Positions 57,369-64,000 of a stretch of DNA of 64,000 nucleotides are shown in pieces. The first letter of the stretch is position 1, and every line of letters starts with the position of its first letter. The notes under the pieces are model-generated. The model was not told where the DNA came from, did not search any database, and saw nothing but the letters and a program-made list of their open reading frames with translations. The stretch comes from Pseudomonadota bacterium. GTDB taxonomy: Bacteria; Pseudomonadota; Alphaproteobacteria; Dongiales; Dongiaceae. Made by a program: the position numbers and the translations under genes. Location of the stretch: NCBI GenBank assembly GCA_016183985.1, contig JACPDN010000005.1, positions 124,001-188,000 on the forward strand, in the 5' to 3' direction.

Positions 57369-57622
57369 TTGCGACCCTCGATCCATTCGCGGACGTCGTT
57401 CTCGCTGTGGAGATAGTCGGACCCAGATTTGACATCGAGCGAAGCCGTGAGGCGCAGCAGGTGCCACATTTCGGGGTCGACGGCTTCGGGATCCTCGCTC
57501 TCGATATTCTCCTGCACCTCAACCGCCCATTCGGCGGCAGCGAGACGGCTGCTGGTGCCGTCGAGCACGGCCTCGAGCACGTTCACGACCTCCGCGCGGG
57601 TGGGAACGGGAATCGTGCTCAT
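57365..57622 (-). CDS. Small acidic hypothetical protein
   Basis: The 85-residue protein is acidic and helical with no membrane segment or Cys. Recognisable features are R-L-A-A-A-E-W-A-V-E, D-P-E-M-W-H-L-L-R-L and D-Y-L-H-S-E-N-D-V-R-E-W. I do not recognise a family with confidence. Both junctions are overlapping: its ATG overlaps the hflX TGA (ATGA) and its TGA overlaps the IMPase-like GTG (GTGA), so it is certainly translated within this operon if hflX is. Confidence 0.75.
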   Translation of the reverse strand: MSTIPVPTRAEVVNVLEAVLDGTSSRLAAAEWAVEVQENIESEDPEAVDPEMWHLLRLTASLDVKSGSDYLHSENDVREWIEGRK

Positions 57623-58986
57623 TGTGGCTCTCCTTCGTATTTTGTGGCGCTCTGGAACTGGCGTTCGAAGCGCTGGATATCCTCCGGCGCGAGACGCACG
57701 GTCATTTCGGTATATTGCTCGGTATCGGCGCGGGCGACAACTTCGCCATGGGCATGGAGCCAGGCCATGGCGGCGCCGTCTTCGTGACGCAGGCGATACT
57801 GGGCGATCTGACGCTGCGCCGAGAGGCGCTGGTCGACGGCGGCGAGCAGATCGTTGAGGCCCGCACCGGTGATTGCGGAAATAGGCTTCAGCCGCGCATC
57901 GCGCGAAGCCTGGGCCGCCAAGGCGTCGCGCCGGGCATCATCCAGAAGATCGGTCTTGTTCAAGACCTCGAACATCGTGTCGGTCACTTCATGACTGATG
58001 CCGAGGCCGGCCAGAACCGCCTCGACATCGGCCTTCTGCCCGTCGGTCTCGGGATGCGCCACATCGCGGACATGGAGGATGATATCGGCTTCCAACACTT
58101 CTTCCAGCGTCGCCCGGAAGGCTGCGACCAACTCGGTCGGCAGATCCGAGATGAAACCCACCGTATCGGAGAGGATGATCTCGCGCCCAGAAGGCAGAGT
58201 GACGCGCCGCATGGTGGGATCGAGCGTCGCGAACAGCAGATCGGCCGCCATCACGGTGGCGCGGGTCAGGCGGTTGAACAATGTCGACTTGCCGGCATTG
58301 GTGTAGCCGACGAGGGCTACCACCGGATAAGGCACGCGCTTGCGGGCCTGGCGATGCAGCGCGCGGGTGCGCTTTACGTCCTCGAGATCCTTCTTGATGC
58401 GTACGATGCGCTCGTCGATCAGACGGCGATCCATTTCGATCTGGCTTTCGCCGGGACCGCCGATGAAGCCGAAGCCGCCGCGCTGACGCTCAAGGTGCGT
58501 CCAGGACCGCACCAGGCGCGATCGCTGATAAGAGAGCGCCGCGAGCTCGACCTGCATCTGGCCTTCACGCGTGCGGGCGCGCTCGCCGAAGATCTCGAGG
58601 ATAAGGCCGGTGCGGTCGATGACCTTCACCTTCCATTCAGTCTCAAGATTGCGCTGCTGCACGGGTGTCAGCGATGCGTCGAAGATGACGACCTCGACCT
58701 CTTCCGTCTGGATCAATTCGGCAATGCGCGCCACGTTGCCCAGCCCCAGCAAAGTGCCGGGCTTGGGATCGTTGACGCGCACGACCTCTCCCGCCACGAC
58801 GTTGAGATCGATGGCGCGAGCAAGGCCGCAGGCTTCCTCAAGGCGTGTTTCCGGCGAACGGCCGCCGCTATATTGCGCGCGGGGGCCGGTCTTGAAGGCC
58901 GGATGAATGACCAAGGCGCGATCGCCATGGCGGATGCCGTCGACGTCAGTATGCGCGCCGCCGGTCTGATCAATTGTTGCAGTCAA
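57619..58986 (-). CDS. hflX: GTPase HflX
   Basis: The protein has the HflX N-terminal domain (P-G-T-L-L-G-L-G-N-V, V-V-I-F-D-A-S-L-T-P-V-Q-Q-R-N-L-E), the glycine-rich G-G-F-G-F-I-G-G-P-G-E-S-Q-I-E and a GTPase domain with G-Y-T-N-A-G-K-S-T-L, D-T-V-G-F and N-K-T-D. HflX splits stalled ribosomes after stress. No ATG is available in a suitable place; the TTG at 58986, just after the hfq stop, gives 455 residues and is the most reasonable start. The open frame to 59109 overlaps hfq out of frame. Confidence 0.94.
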   Translation of the reverse strand: MTATIDQTGGAHTDVDGIRHGDRALVIHPAFKTGPRAQYSGGRSPETRLEEACGLARAIDLNVVAGEVVRVNDPKPGTLLGLGNVARIAELIQTEEVEVVIFDASLTPVQQRNLETEWKVKVIDRTGLILEIFGERARTREGQMQVELAALSYQRSRLVRSWTHLERQRGGFGFIGGPGESQIEMDRRLIDERIVRIKKDLEDVKRTRALHRQARKRVPYPVVALVGYTNAGKSTLFNRLTRATVMAADLLFATLDPTMRRVTLPSGREIILSDTVGFISDLPTELVAAFRATLEEVLEADIILHVRDVAHPETDGQKADVEAVLAGLGISHEVTDTMFEVLNKTDLLDDARRDALAAQASRDARLKPISAITGAGLNDLLAAVDQRLSAQRQIAQYRLRHEDGAAMAWLHAHGEVVARADTEQYTEMTVRLAPEDIQRFERQFQSATKYEGEPQ

Positions 58987-59014
58987 ATTCCAACTTTCGT
59001 GGCTTGCGCCCCGA

Positions 59015-59266
59015 TCAGGCCTCGTCGCCCTCTTTCTGGGGCTCGAAGAGCTGGATGGGGGTACCCGGCATGATGGTCGAGATCGCGTGCTTGTAGACCA
59101 ACTGGACATGAGAGTCGCGGCGCAGCAGCACGGAGAAATTGTCGAACCATGTGACGATGCCCTGCAGCTTCACGCCGTTGACCAGGAAGATCGTAACCGG
59201 GATCTTGTTCTTGCGGATATTGTTGAGGAAGACGTCCTGGACGCTTTGCGATTTTTCGTTTGCCAT
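59015..59266 (-). CDS. hfq: RNA chaperone Hfq
   Basis: The 83-residue protein has the Sm1 motif ([24 protein letters not shown]) and Sm2 motif (Y-K-H-A-I-S-T-I). Hfq forms hexamers and pairs small RNAs with mRNAs. AGGATAGGA precedes the ATG. hflX follows after 28 bases. The 181-base gap upstream (59267-59447) probably contains its own promoter in addition to read-through from the ntr genes. Confidence 0.98.
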
Positions 59267-59447
59267 CGTCCTATCCTTTTCTCATTGGGCCCGTTTTGAG
59301 CCGTTTCGTTATTTTGTGCCTGCTCACGATCCGCCATTCCCGACCGGGACCATGACCCAGGAATTCACCCTGTGGCCCGATAGAGTGGTTAACACAGAAC
59401 TTGACAGAATGAAACTTCTGTCCCGCGTGAATCGGCCGGGATGGGGC

Positions 59448-60098
59448 CTAAAGGGCCGCGAGGGCTGCCTGAAGTCCTGAAAGGGCAGGAAAATAGTGCT
59501 GTGGCGGCGCTTCGCCGAACTCCCCGGCGTGAGGTGGTTGTGGGCGAACCAGGACCGGCACGCAACCGTTGTTATGCCCGCAAATGAGGTCGATATCGGT
59601 GTCGCCGATGAACCACACATGCTTGCCGGGCTGGAGCTCACCCGGGTCGAGCGCCTTCTGGACATGTTCGCGGGCGGGCTTGTCATGGGCGGCATCCCCT
59701 GCCCCGGCAAGCGCCGTGAAGTATTTGTTCCAGCCGAGATGGGCCGCTTCCTTGCGCAAATAGGGCCCGCGCTTATTGCTCACGACCCCCATGTAGAAGC
59801 CAGCACCCGACGCCCAGCGCAGGAGATCTTCGGCACCGGCGAGCGGCTGGAGTTCCAGAAGATGGAGGCGCTCGAAGGCTGCATAGAAGATCTTCTCGGC
59901 CTCCTTCCAGCGTTCGCCGAAGAGGCTGGGGAAGCTGTCGCGCAAACTGGCGCGGATGCGGTTCTCCGCCTCGGACCTCGACCAGCGCGGATGTCCCATC
60001 TCCTCAAGCGTCGTGTTCATGGCGGCGTGAATGACGCCCCAGGAATCGACCAGGGTGTTGTCCCAGTCGAAGAGCAGGACGGTCGGACGCCGGTTCAT
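59448..60098 (-). CDS. HAD family hydrolase (phosphoglycolate-phosphatase-like)
   Basis: The 216-residue protein has HAD motif I F-D-W-D-N-T-L-V, motif II V-V-S-N-K-R, a lysine in H-D-K-P-A and motif IV I-G-D-T-D-I-D. The cap is the helical type of the Gph/PGM group. The substrate is unknown. Its ATG overlaps the stop of the interrupted aminotransferase gene (ATGA), so its translation normally depends on the gene upstream. Confidence 0.9.
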   Translation of the reverse strand: MNRRPTVLLFDWDNTLVDSWGVIHAAMNTTLEEMGHPRWSRSEAENRIRASLRDSFPSLFGERWKEAEKIFYAAFERLHLLELQPLAGAEDLLRWASGAGFYMGVVSNKRGPYLRKEAAHLGWNKYFTALAGAGDAAHDKPAREHVQKALDPGELQPGKHVWFIGDTDIDLICGHNNGCVPVLVRPQPPHAGEFGEAPPQHYFPALSGLQAALAAL

Positions 60099-60958
60099 GA
60101 CGCGGCCTTCACCTGGCGGGCGACATTCTCGACATAGATCTGGCGCAACTGCTGGGTCACCGGTCCCGGCCTGCCGCTACCGACCTTCTGCCCGTCGATT
60201 GTGGTCACCGGCAGGATGAAGGCCGAGGACGATGTCAGGAAGGCTTCGTCGGCGGCAAGCGCTTCCTGCAGCGTGAAACTGCGCTCGACCAGCTTCACCC
60301 CTGTCTTGGCGGCAAGTTCCAGCAGCGACAGACGCGTAACGCCGCCCAGGATGTCGTGGCCTTTGGGATAGGTGATGACGGCGCCGTCCTTCACGATCCA
60401 GGCATTGGTCGAGGAACCTTCGGTCACAGTTCCATCGGGCCCTACCAGCCAAGCCTCGAAGGCCTTTGCTTCAGTCGCTGCCTGCTTGGCAAGGATGTTG
60501 GGGAGCAGTGAAATCGATTTGATATCGCGTCGCGTCCAGCGGATGTCCGGTTGGCTGGAAACGGCAACGCCGTCGCGCAGCATGGCTTCGCTCGGTGGAT
60601 TGGTGCGCTTGGTGGTCATCACCAGCGCACTTTTGGCGCTGGCCGGAAATTTGTGATCGCGCGGCGCGACGCCGCGGGTCACTTGGAAATAGACGAGGCC
60701 ACGCCGCAAACCGTTCTTCGCCATCAACTCGCGCAGAATGAGCTTCAGCGCCGACCGAGTGACAGGCCAGGCGATGCGCAATTCCTGCAGCGAGTAACCG
60801 AGGCGGTCGAGATGCGGCGCTTCATCGACCAGCACGCCGTCGATCACCGGCACCACTTCATAGACACCATCGGCAAATTGCTAGCCGCGGTCCTCGATAT
60901 GGACCATGGCTTGAGCATGCGGCACATAGCGGCCGTTGACATAGGCGAGACGGCCCAT
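60095..60958 (-). pseudogene. dat: D-amino-acid aminotransferase gene with in-frame TAG
   Basis: Translation from ATG 60958 gives M-G-R-L-A-Y-V-N-G-R-Y-V-P-H and I-E-D-R-G, then TAG at 60883-60881 (codon 26), and in the same frame Q-F-A-D-G-V-Y-E-V continues the conserved fold type IV aminotransferase sequence to 60095. The rest is intact: Y-F-Q-V-T-R-G, the lysine in D-I-K-S-I-S-L-L, V-T-E-G-S-S-T-N. Without the stop it would be a 287-residue enzyme transaminating D-amino acids. The stop occupies a position that is usually Tyr or another aromatic in this motif, so one base change explains it. It could be a real nonsense mutation, a sequencing error, or a gene read from internal GTG codons. 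Confidence 0.88.
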
Positions 60959-60994
60959 TTTTCAGCATTTCCTCATGATGATATTTCCCCAAAG

Positions 60995-61075
60995 CCGTCA
61001 TGCCCGGGCTTGATCCGGGCATCCAGTCTTGCCGACCAGGCAGTGGATCACCGGGTCTTCGCCCGGGGATGACGG
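60995..61075. repeat. Dispersed palindromic repeat, family A, copy 2
   Basis: Ends CCGTCATG/GATGACGG and internal GTGGATCACCGGG are shared with the copy at 55460-55538. It lies in the gap between ntrX and the interrupted aminotransferase gene, where it may act as a partial terminator. Confidence 0.85.
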
Positions 61076-61101
61076 TATCGTAATTTCAAGCCCGGCAAAC
61101 A

Positions 61102-62508
61102 TCAGGCGCCCTCGGGCTTCAGTCCCTCGGCACGCTCATTGGTGTTGATACCGAGCGAGCGCAGTTTGCGGTGAAGCGCCGAACGCTCCATGCCGACGAA
61201 ATTGGCGGTGCGGGAGATATTTCCCCCGAAGCGTGCCACCTGGCTTTCGAGATAACGCCGCTCGAAGATCTCGCGCGCCTCGCGCAGCGGCAGCGACATG
61301 ACCTCGGTACCATCGGCAAGCGATGTCGGTGCAATGGAGACGGAACCGATATCCGGCGGCAGCATATCGGCGCGTATGGCTTCGTCCGGTGCGCCACCAG
61401 TCATGATCAGAATCCAATCGATGACATTCCGGAGCTGGCGGACGTTGCCCGGCCATTCATAGGCTTGCAGCACGGCAATCGCATCCTCGGCGAGACGTCG
61501 CGCCGGCAGGCCGGTCTGTTCGGAGGCGCGGGCCATGAAGTATTCGAGCAGATCAAAGATATCGTCGCGCCGCTCTTTCAGCGGCGGCAGGCGCATCGGC
61601 ACCACATTGAGGCGGTAGAAGAGATCCTGCCGGAAGCGGCCGGCCGTCATTTCGGCTTGAAGATCGCGGGCGGTTGAGGCGATCACACGGACGTCGACCT
61701 CGACCCGGGTCTTGCCACCGACGCGCTCGAAAGTCTGTTCCTGCAGGACGCGCAGGATTTTGCCCTGGGTCTCGAGCGGCATGTCGGCCACTTCGTCGAG
61801 CAGCAAGGTGCCGCCATGCGCCTGCTCCAGGAAACCAATCTTGGCAGCCCCTTCCCCGTCCCGTTCCTGGCCGAAGAGCTCGATCTCCAGGCGGTCGGGA
61901 TGCATGGTGGCGCAGTTCAGCACGACGAACGGCCCGGTAGCGCGCTTCGAACGCTTGTGCAGGAGGCGGGCCGCCACCTCCTTGCCGCTGCCCGGAGGGC
62001 CGGAAAAGAGCACGCGGCTCCCCGTCGGTGCCACGCGTTCGATGGCGAGACGGAGCTGCAGAATGGCCTGAGATGAGCCGATAAGCTCACCCTCTGCGCC
62101 GGCGCGGTGTTTCAGTTCCTCGACCTCACGGCGCAGGCGCGCCGCTTCGAGCGCACGCTCGATCGTCAGCAGCAGGCGGTCGGACTTGAACGGCTTTTCG
62201 ATGAAGTCATAGGCGCCATTTTTAATGGCTGTCACGGCCGTCTCGATATTGCCGTGGCCGCTGATCATGATGACGGGAATGTCTGAAAACTCGACCTTCA
62301 GGATCTCGAGCAGTCCCATGCCATCGAGAGCGGAATTGTTCAGCCAGATATCGAGGACGATGAGATTTGGCCGCCGGGTGCGCAATTGCGCCAGGGCCGC
62401 ATCGCTGTCCCCTGCCTCGCGTGTCTGGAAGCCTTCATCGCCGAGAATGCCGCTGATGAGCAAGCGGATGTCCGCCTCGTCATCGACGATGAGAATGTCC
62501 CGCGCCAT
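61102..62508 (-). CDS. ntrX: Nitrogen-related response regulator NtrX
   Basis: The 468-residue protein has a receiver domain (Asp53 in V-L-D-I-W-L), an AAA+ domain with Walker A G-P-P-G-S-G-K-E and Walker B L-L-L-D-E-V, and a Fis-type helix-turn-helix at the end (N-I-S-R-T-A-N-F-V-G-M-E-R-S-A-L-H-R-K-L). The sigma-54-contacting G-A-F-T-G-A loop is replaced by D-G-E-G-A-A-K-I-G, as in other NtrX proteins, so it likely regulates without activating sigma-54. ntrY lies 30 bases upstream on the same transcript. Confidence 0.95.
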   Translation of the reverse strand: MARDILIVDDEADIRLLISGILGDEGFQTREAGDSDAALAQLRTRRPNLIVLDIWLNNSALDGMGLLEILKVEFSDIPVIMISGHGNIETAVTAIKNGAYDFIEKPFKSDRLLLTIERALEAARLRREVEELKHRAGAEGELIGSSQAILQLRLAIERVAPTGSRVLFSGPPGSGKEVAARLLHKRSKRATGPFVVLNCATMHPDRLEIELFGQERDGEGAAKIGFLEQAHGGTLLLDEVADMPLETQGKILRVLQEQTFERVGGKTRVEVDVRVIASTARDLQAEMTAGRFRQDLFYRLNVVPMRLPPLKERRDDIFDLLEYFMARASEQTGLPARRLAEDAIAVLQAYEWPGNVRQLRNVIDWILIMTGGAPDEAIRADMLPPDIGSVSIAPTSLADGTEVMSLPLREAREIFERRYLESQVARFGGNISRTANFVGMERSALHRKLRSLGINTNERAEGLKPEGA

Positions 62509-62538: not shown

Positions 62539-64000
62539 CTATCTGCTGGCAATCTGCAGGCCGGGGGCCGTATCGGCACTGTCCGGCGACCGCATTTGCG
62601 GTGCATCGAGTGGAAAACTCAACGTCACCACCGCCCCGCCACCCGGACGGTCTGCCAACGACAAACGACCACCATGGTCCTCCATGATCTTCTTGACGAT
62701 AGCTAGCCCCAGACCGGTTCCCTTGCTGCGCGTCGTCACATAGGGTTCAGTCAGGCGCTCGCGGCCTTCCTTCGGCAAACCTTTGCCGTTGTCGGCAACA
62801 CTGAGAAGCAATGCATCGCTCTCGCGTCTTATCCATAAATGGATATGCCCCGGCGTCAAGAGGCCATCCCGGCCAGTCGCGTCCCCCTCTTCCATGCGAC
62901 CTTCGATCGCATCGGCGCCGTTCTGGAGCAGGTTTGTCAGTGCGCGATTGAACTGGCTCGAATCGCATTGGATCATGACCGGAATCTCGGGCAGGTCGAG
63001 CGAGTATTCGATTCCGGGATGCGCACTCTGCTGCAGGAAGACCAATTCCTTTGCCAGGGCGACAGGGCTTTCCGGATTGAGCACCGGCGCCGGCATGCGA
63101 GCGAAGGCGGAGAATTCATCGACCATCCGCCCGATGTCGCCAACTTGCCGGATGATGGTGTCGGTGCAGACCGTGAAGGTCTCGGGATCCTCGGTAATCT
63201 GCTTCAGGTATTTCCGTTTCAACCGCTCGGCTGACAGCTGAATTGGGGTTAACGGATTCTTGATCTCGTGGGCAATGCGCCGGGCGATATCGGACCAGGC
63301 CGCCTTGCGCTGCGCCGACAGCAGCTCCGTAACGTCATCGAAGGTGATGACCAGGCGCATGTGACCGTCCTCGCTCCGTTCGGACACCACGCGGACATGG
63401 AAGGTGCTGGTGGCACCATTCCGGTTCAAAGAAATCTGGCCATCGGCGACGCCTGAACTGCGATGCTGTGCTTGTCCCAACAACTCAGCCATTTCAGGAA
63501 CCAAGGCCGCAATAGGCTGTCCGATGCCCTGCTCCAGATCCTGACCGACAAGCGTCGACGCCGAGCGGTTGGCAAAGTCGACAATGCCGTTTTCGGTAAC
63601 ACCGATCACGCCCGCAGAAACGCCGGACAAAATGAGACCGGTGAGGCGGCTGCGGTCGTTGAGATCGCGGTTGGCCGCGATGAGGGCCGCCTGCTGGCTT
63701 TGCAATTGCGACGCCATGACATTGAATGTCCGACTGAGCGCCGCAAATTCGTCATTGCGCGACCCTACCCTAACACGGGCCGACATGTCGCCGTCGCCGA
63801 TCTTCTGGGCTGCCGAGGCCAAGCGCGAAACCGGTTTCACCAGCTTGCTCGCCGAGATGATGGCGTACCAGACTGCACCGAGCAACATCAACAGCGCCAA
63901 GACGGCATAGATGACGCCAGACGTGATCTGCAATGAGGAGCGATCTCGTTCCAGTTTATGATACAGCCGGGCTGCATCTTCCGTGCCCCGAACGGCGCTC
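62539..64000 (-). CDS. ntrY: Sensor histidine kinase NtrY (N-terminal part outside window)
   Basis: The frame runs open from the window edge to a stop at 62539-62541, giving 486 residues. Visible parts are a transmembrane helix near the edge, a HAMP domain (V-K-P-V-S-R-L-A-S-A-A), a PAS domain, the H box R-I-A-H-E-I-K-N-P-L-T-P-I-Q-L-S-A-E-R, N box N-L-L-Q-N-G-A-D-A-I and G boxes V-A-D-N-G-K-G-L and G-T-G-L-G-L-A-I-V. NtrY phosphorylates NtrX in response to nitrogen or redox state. The typical ~750-residue length implies ~270 residues are missing beyond 64000. Confidence 0.95.
   Translation of the reverse strand, partial: SAVRGTEDAARLYHKLERDRSSLQITSGVIYAVLALLMLLGAVWYAIISASKLVKPVSRLASAAQKIGDGDMSARVRVGSRNDEFAALSRTFNVMASQLQSQQAALIAANRDLNDRSRLTGLILSGVSAGVIGVTENGIVDFANRSASTLVGQDLEQGIGQPIAALVPEMAELLGQAQHRSSGVADGQISLNRNGATSTFHVRVVSERSEDGHMRLVITFDDVTELLSAQRKAAWSDIARRIAHEIKNPLTPIQLSAERLKRKYLKQITEDPETFTVCTDTIIRQVGDIGRMVDEFSAFARMPAPVLNPESPVALAKELVFLQQSAHPGIEYSLDLPEIPVMIQCDSSQFNRALTNLLQNGADAIEGRMEEGDATGRDGLLTPGHIHLWIRRESDALLLSVADNGKGLPKEGRERLTEPYVTTRSKGTGLGLAIVKKIMEDHGGRLSLADRPGGGAVVTLSFPLDAPQMRSPDSADTAPGLQIASR

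Follow-up and report, generated by a model that had tools for sequence, protein, structure and literature searches.

D-amino-acid aminotransferases (DAATs) are class IV aminotransferases (PF01063), and the best solved relative of the dat gene described here is 1daa. Residues 25–274 of 1daa align with the part of dat that lies past an internal stop. The DIKS segment of 1daa, containing Lys145, which we take to be the PLP lysine, aligns with a DIKS segment in dat, and the lysine is kept. The gene differs from D-amino-acid aminotransferases in its reading frame, which is not continuous but carries an in-frame TAG at codon 26.

In-frame stops of this kind have been described elsewhere. Belinky et al. 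2021 report in-frame stops within bacterial genes whose dN/dS is below 1, suggest read-through, and state that such stops tend to last a short evolutionary time (PMC7918605). The stops kept in that survey are common to at least two species, whereas the dat stop is confined to a single genome. Young pseudogenes created by a private nonsense mutation also resemble this locus, with a single stop, no other decay and the low dN/dS seen in dat. Among the matches listed for literature on Dongia genomes, stops and read-through, DAATs, and palindromic repeats, the dat stop is not described.

We consider it probable that the dat stop is a recent null mutation, caused by a real point mutation in a gene that is probably dispensable and whose loss is tolerated. 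In the sequenced strain, or in ancestors of recent date, a conserved aromatic codon (Tyr in near relatives) would have been changed to TAG. The normal start would then give a product of 25 residues only, and no useful DAAT would be made. We infer the correctness of the TAG base, the absence of a dat product and the tolerance of its loss.

The dat reading frame and its internal stop

The dat gene occupies positions 60095–60958 on the minus strand of the window (the whole 64,000-nucleotide stretch analysed), as judged by its open reading frame (ORF) and profile match. Its ATG lies at 60958–60956 and its terminal stop at 60097–60095. The in-frame TAG at codon 26 is at 60881–60883 on the minus strand (CTA on the plus strand), and the open stretch past it (60095–60880, minus strand) encodes 261 aa. 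This part scores 338.2 bits against the NCBIfam D-amino-acid transaminase model NF005209, over the curated cut-off of 320, and matches profile positions 27–283 of 286. Against TIGR01121 this part, in which the first 25 residues are missing, scores 249.4, below the cut-off of 277.45. The 25 residues ahead of the stop are 96% identical to those of the nearest relative, G006, and 92% identical to those of G002. Its conservation in 101 relatives, and the entry of the post-stop part into the NF005209 profile at position 27, are the grounds for taking this segment as real coding sequence. The preliminary description of a TAG at codon 26 of an otherwise intact gene thus holds, with 25 codons before and 261 after the stop intact and family-like.

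A second start within the frame could in principle rescue the gene. Ribosomes are known to reinitiate after early nonsense codons, and dat has two in-frame GTG codons beginning nine codons past the stop, the first being codon 35 (60854–60856, minus strand). A restart at this or a later GTG would yield a shortened active enzyme, an outcome we regard as extremely improbable. Such a product would lose codons 1–34 and with them all that aligns with 1daa as far as residue 32, in a segment conserved across the family. Tyr31, presumably an active-site residue, falls within the lost part. By eye, there is also no clear ribosome-binding site upstream of the GTG. The restart proposed earlier is therefore unlikely to be functional. 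When ORFs are listed mechanically, a 253-aa protein at 60095–60856 is predicted from the internal GTG. Automatic annotation might likewise list this protein and so mask the interruption of dat.

Distribution of the stop and selection on dat

To place the stop among relatives, we sought the motif around it in three sets: the top 30 loci from a longer list, the best 80 of 524 matches, and six neighbourhoods. The motif was found in 25, 80 and five of these, respectively, giving 110 rows and 102 distinct sequences; L015, L023, L025, L030, L034 and L164 lack the motif and are not counted. The codon-26 site is Tyr in 86 of the 102 distinct sequences, Phe in 15, and a stop only in the window's genome (G000). 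This agrees with the earlier placement of the stop inside a conserved segment, and with one stop in 102 sequences a conserved or programmed stop is rejected. The genus comparison comprised seven genomes including the window's own, each of the others from a different species than the window's. Five of the six others cover the site; all five have Tyr and an intact dat, which answers the earlier call to check the same locus in relatives. In the sixth, G003, dat is cut by a contig end. Within the best 80 of 524, an uncultured Dongia sp. is the closest named match, at 81% identity; its sequence at the site is identical to that of G002, in the same genus as the window. The window's genome belongs with Dongia. 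A putative second stop-bearing relative, G009 (listed with one TGA), was discarded, as its match to residues 2–255 aligns without a stop. Separately, a distant G009 match (28% identity) was listed with one TAG.

The interrupted gene retains the signature of purifying selection. Against G006, dat has a dN of 0.068, a dS of 0.792 and a dN/dS of 0.086, similar figures being found for the HAD-family hydrolase gene (0.076) and hflX (0.083) downstream; at a dS of ∼0.8, synonymous changes are partly saturated. When changes were polarised with G002, the ratio of nonsynonymous to synonymous changes in dat was 18:49 on the G000 branch and 21:39 on the sister G006 branch (Fisher p 0.34), so dat is no less constrained on the G000 branch than on its sister. 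Counts of this kind differ from gene to gene, since intact hflX shows relatively more nonsynonymous change on the G000 branch (28:52 vs 17:76). We also applied a crude two-phase model, with a neutral nonsynonymous-to-synonymous ratio of 2.2 computed from dat and transitions weighted four to one. In this model the chance of 18 or fewer nonsynonymous changes among 67 is 0.03 with an assumed constrained ratio of 0.45 and 10% of the branch unconstrained, 0.05 with a ratio of 0.3 and 15% unconstrained, and 0.03 with a ratio of 0.54 and 5% unconstrained. The model would thus disfavour unconstrained evolution of dat over more than roughly 5–15% of the G000 branch, depending on the assumed constraint. 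An older pseudogene under relaxed selection is not supported by the low dN/dS and the branch counts. Because dat is under purifying selection, the stop is young, unreal or harmless. The preliminary reading of the event as recent or an error is borne out by the restriction of the stop to one genome and the unrelaxed constraint.

Decoding of TAG and accuracy of the assembly

Low dN/dS would also be expected of a functional read-through gene, and to that extent does not single out a null mutation. A near-cognate tRNA might read through the TAG at a useful rate, leaving low DAAT activity from a leaky or regulated gene. The bacterial in-frame stops for which PMC7918605 suggests read-through, in genes of dN/dS below 1, offer a precedent, but such stops are there described as tending to be short-lived in evolution. 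Moreover, a very young mutation would give an equally low dN/dS, and the stop occurs in no relative examined. The decoding machinery also speaks against read-through. The Rfam model detected 44 tRNAs, none of which has a CUA anticodon when typed by ARAGORN; this tRNA set is incomplete, as the expected Ile GAT and Ala TGC types, the usual companions of rRNA operons, are missing from it. The genome also encodes release factor RF1 in an open frame (contig C5, 8243–9310; 502.8 bits against a cut-off of 423.25). We therefore judge near-cognate read-through improbable. TAG is moreover an ordinary terminator, ending 59 of the 290 gene-like ORFs of the contig, and recoding of TAG is not supported. The read-through raised in the preliminary description, if by a suppressor or a changed code, accordingly finds no backing in the CUA count, RF1 or the relatives.

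Alternatively, the TAG may have arisen through a mistake in base calling or assembly, or as a variant acquired in culture, with the dat of the organism itself intact. A single-base difference, found in one genome only and in an otherwise constrained gene, is what such an origin would leave. We nonetheless consider this rather unlikely, given the quality of the assembly (16 contigs, completeness 100, contamination 0) and the scarcity of comparable interruptions. The latter were counted by taking a 400-kb stretch of G006, comparing its gene-like ORFs with their counterparts on the window's contig, and flagging any stop between locally similar flanks after antisense shadow ORFs had been filtered out. 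Seven of 282 ORFs were flagged with a stop in G000 and, in the reverse comparison, six of 292 with a stop in G006. In five of the six flagged G000 ORFs other than dat, Pfam first matches the G006 protein past the stop position (from residues 56, 154, 152, 78 and 43, with stops near 16, 56, 63, 11 and 25), as expected if their starts are over-extended; for one G006 counterpart, the Pfam scan reached only the end of the fetched piece. For the sixth (137 aa), the G006 counterpart matches nothing in Pfam. Pfam alone does not separate dat from these ORFs, as PF01063 starts at residue 31 of the G006 dat protein, likewise past the stop position. The distinguishing feature of dat is the conservation, among relatives, of the residues ahead of and surrounding its stop. 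With no other convincing interruption in 282 ORFs of the contig, the error rate looks low. These counts argue against an error-rich assembly, without proving the TAG base. One frameshift-like case, a LysR-type regulator by our reading, has its frame intact from a GTG.

Gene neighbourhood, palindromic repeat and alternative routes to D-amino acids

The minus-strand gene order is ntrX, dat, HAD hydrolase, hfq, hflX. The nitrogen assimilation response regulator ntrX (61102–62508, minus strand) matches NF051870 with 711 bits. The HAD-family hydrolase (59448–60098, minus strand) and hfq (59015–59266, minus strand) were assigned by profile match and ORF. hflX (57619–59109, minus strand) scores 442 bits against TIGR03156 over residues 86–429, and its true start may lie inside the ORF. 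The ORF beyond ntrX (62539–63933) has no NCBIfam match at E 1e-60. Thus, of the earlier placement of dat between ntrYX and hfq-hflX, NtrX, Hfq and HflX are matched, while the name ntrY remains that of the preliminary description only. The ATGA coupling it noted is confirmed, as the HAD start at 60098 overlaps the dat stop. This HAD gene is itself intact, with 91% identity to its G006 counterpart; the dat stop could possibly lower its expression. Scans of 58900–61150 found no promoter and one terminator, on the plus strand, which is fewer than the mean of shuffles.

Here ntrX and dat are separated by a spacer of 143 bases, against about 30 to 50 in G006, G002, G005, G004 and G001. Its ∼110 extra bases, private to G000 and absent in the five relatives, contain a palindromic repeat (core used as query, 60995–61078, minus strand). 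The spacer folds with −56.7 kcal/mol (z −2.86), and one of 200 shuffles is as stable. No T run follows the hairpin, and we claim no terminator role for it. The repeat is dispersed in the genome, with at least 46 rows and at least 42 distinct places including the ntrX–dat copy (E up to 0.001); these counts are lower bounds, as 40 of 131 candidates were scored. Similar stretches occur at about three places in 400 kb of G006. Four copies (L230, L231, L235 and L244) lie one after another within ∼600 bases at G000:C2:453173–453759. It is speculation that insertion of the repeat made dat less needed. A still more elaborate scenario is that a leaky stop, allowing a trickle of DAAT, and the new repeat together loosen the tie of dat and HAD-hfq-hflX to ntrX transcription in a stepwise re-wiring of the conserved operon; we regard this as very improbable.

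A null mutation in dat would be tolerated if D-Ala and D-Glu were supplied by other enzymes, and alanine and glutamate racemases are alternative routes to these. The genome has an alanine racemase gene (alr; TIGR00492, 211.1 bits against a cut-off of 168) and one resembling glutamate racemase, which scores 143.8 bits against TIGR00067, just below the cut-off of 146.65. Because these two enzymes can supply D-Ala and D-Glu, the loss of dat would be tolerated. From pathway knowledge, we conjecture that the racemases suffice in its place. Three further class IV aminotransferases are present. Two score 134.6 and 121.3 bits against NF005209 (cut-off 320), the third has no match to this model at E 1e-30, and two of the three exceed the cut-off of branched-chain aminotransferase models.

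As what is probably a young nonsense mutation, set in a conserved gene cluster, the dat stop is a clean example of its kind. It is of little import alone, but may be useful for gauging the dispensability of DAAT where alanine and glutamate racemases are present.
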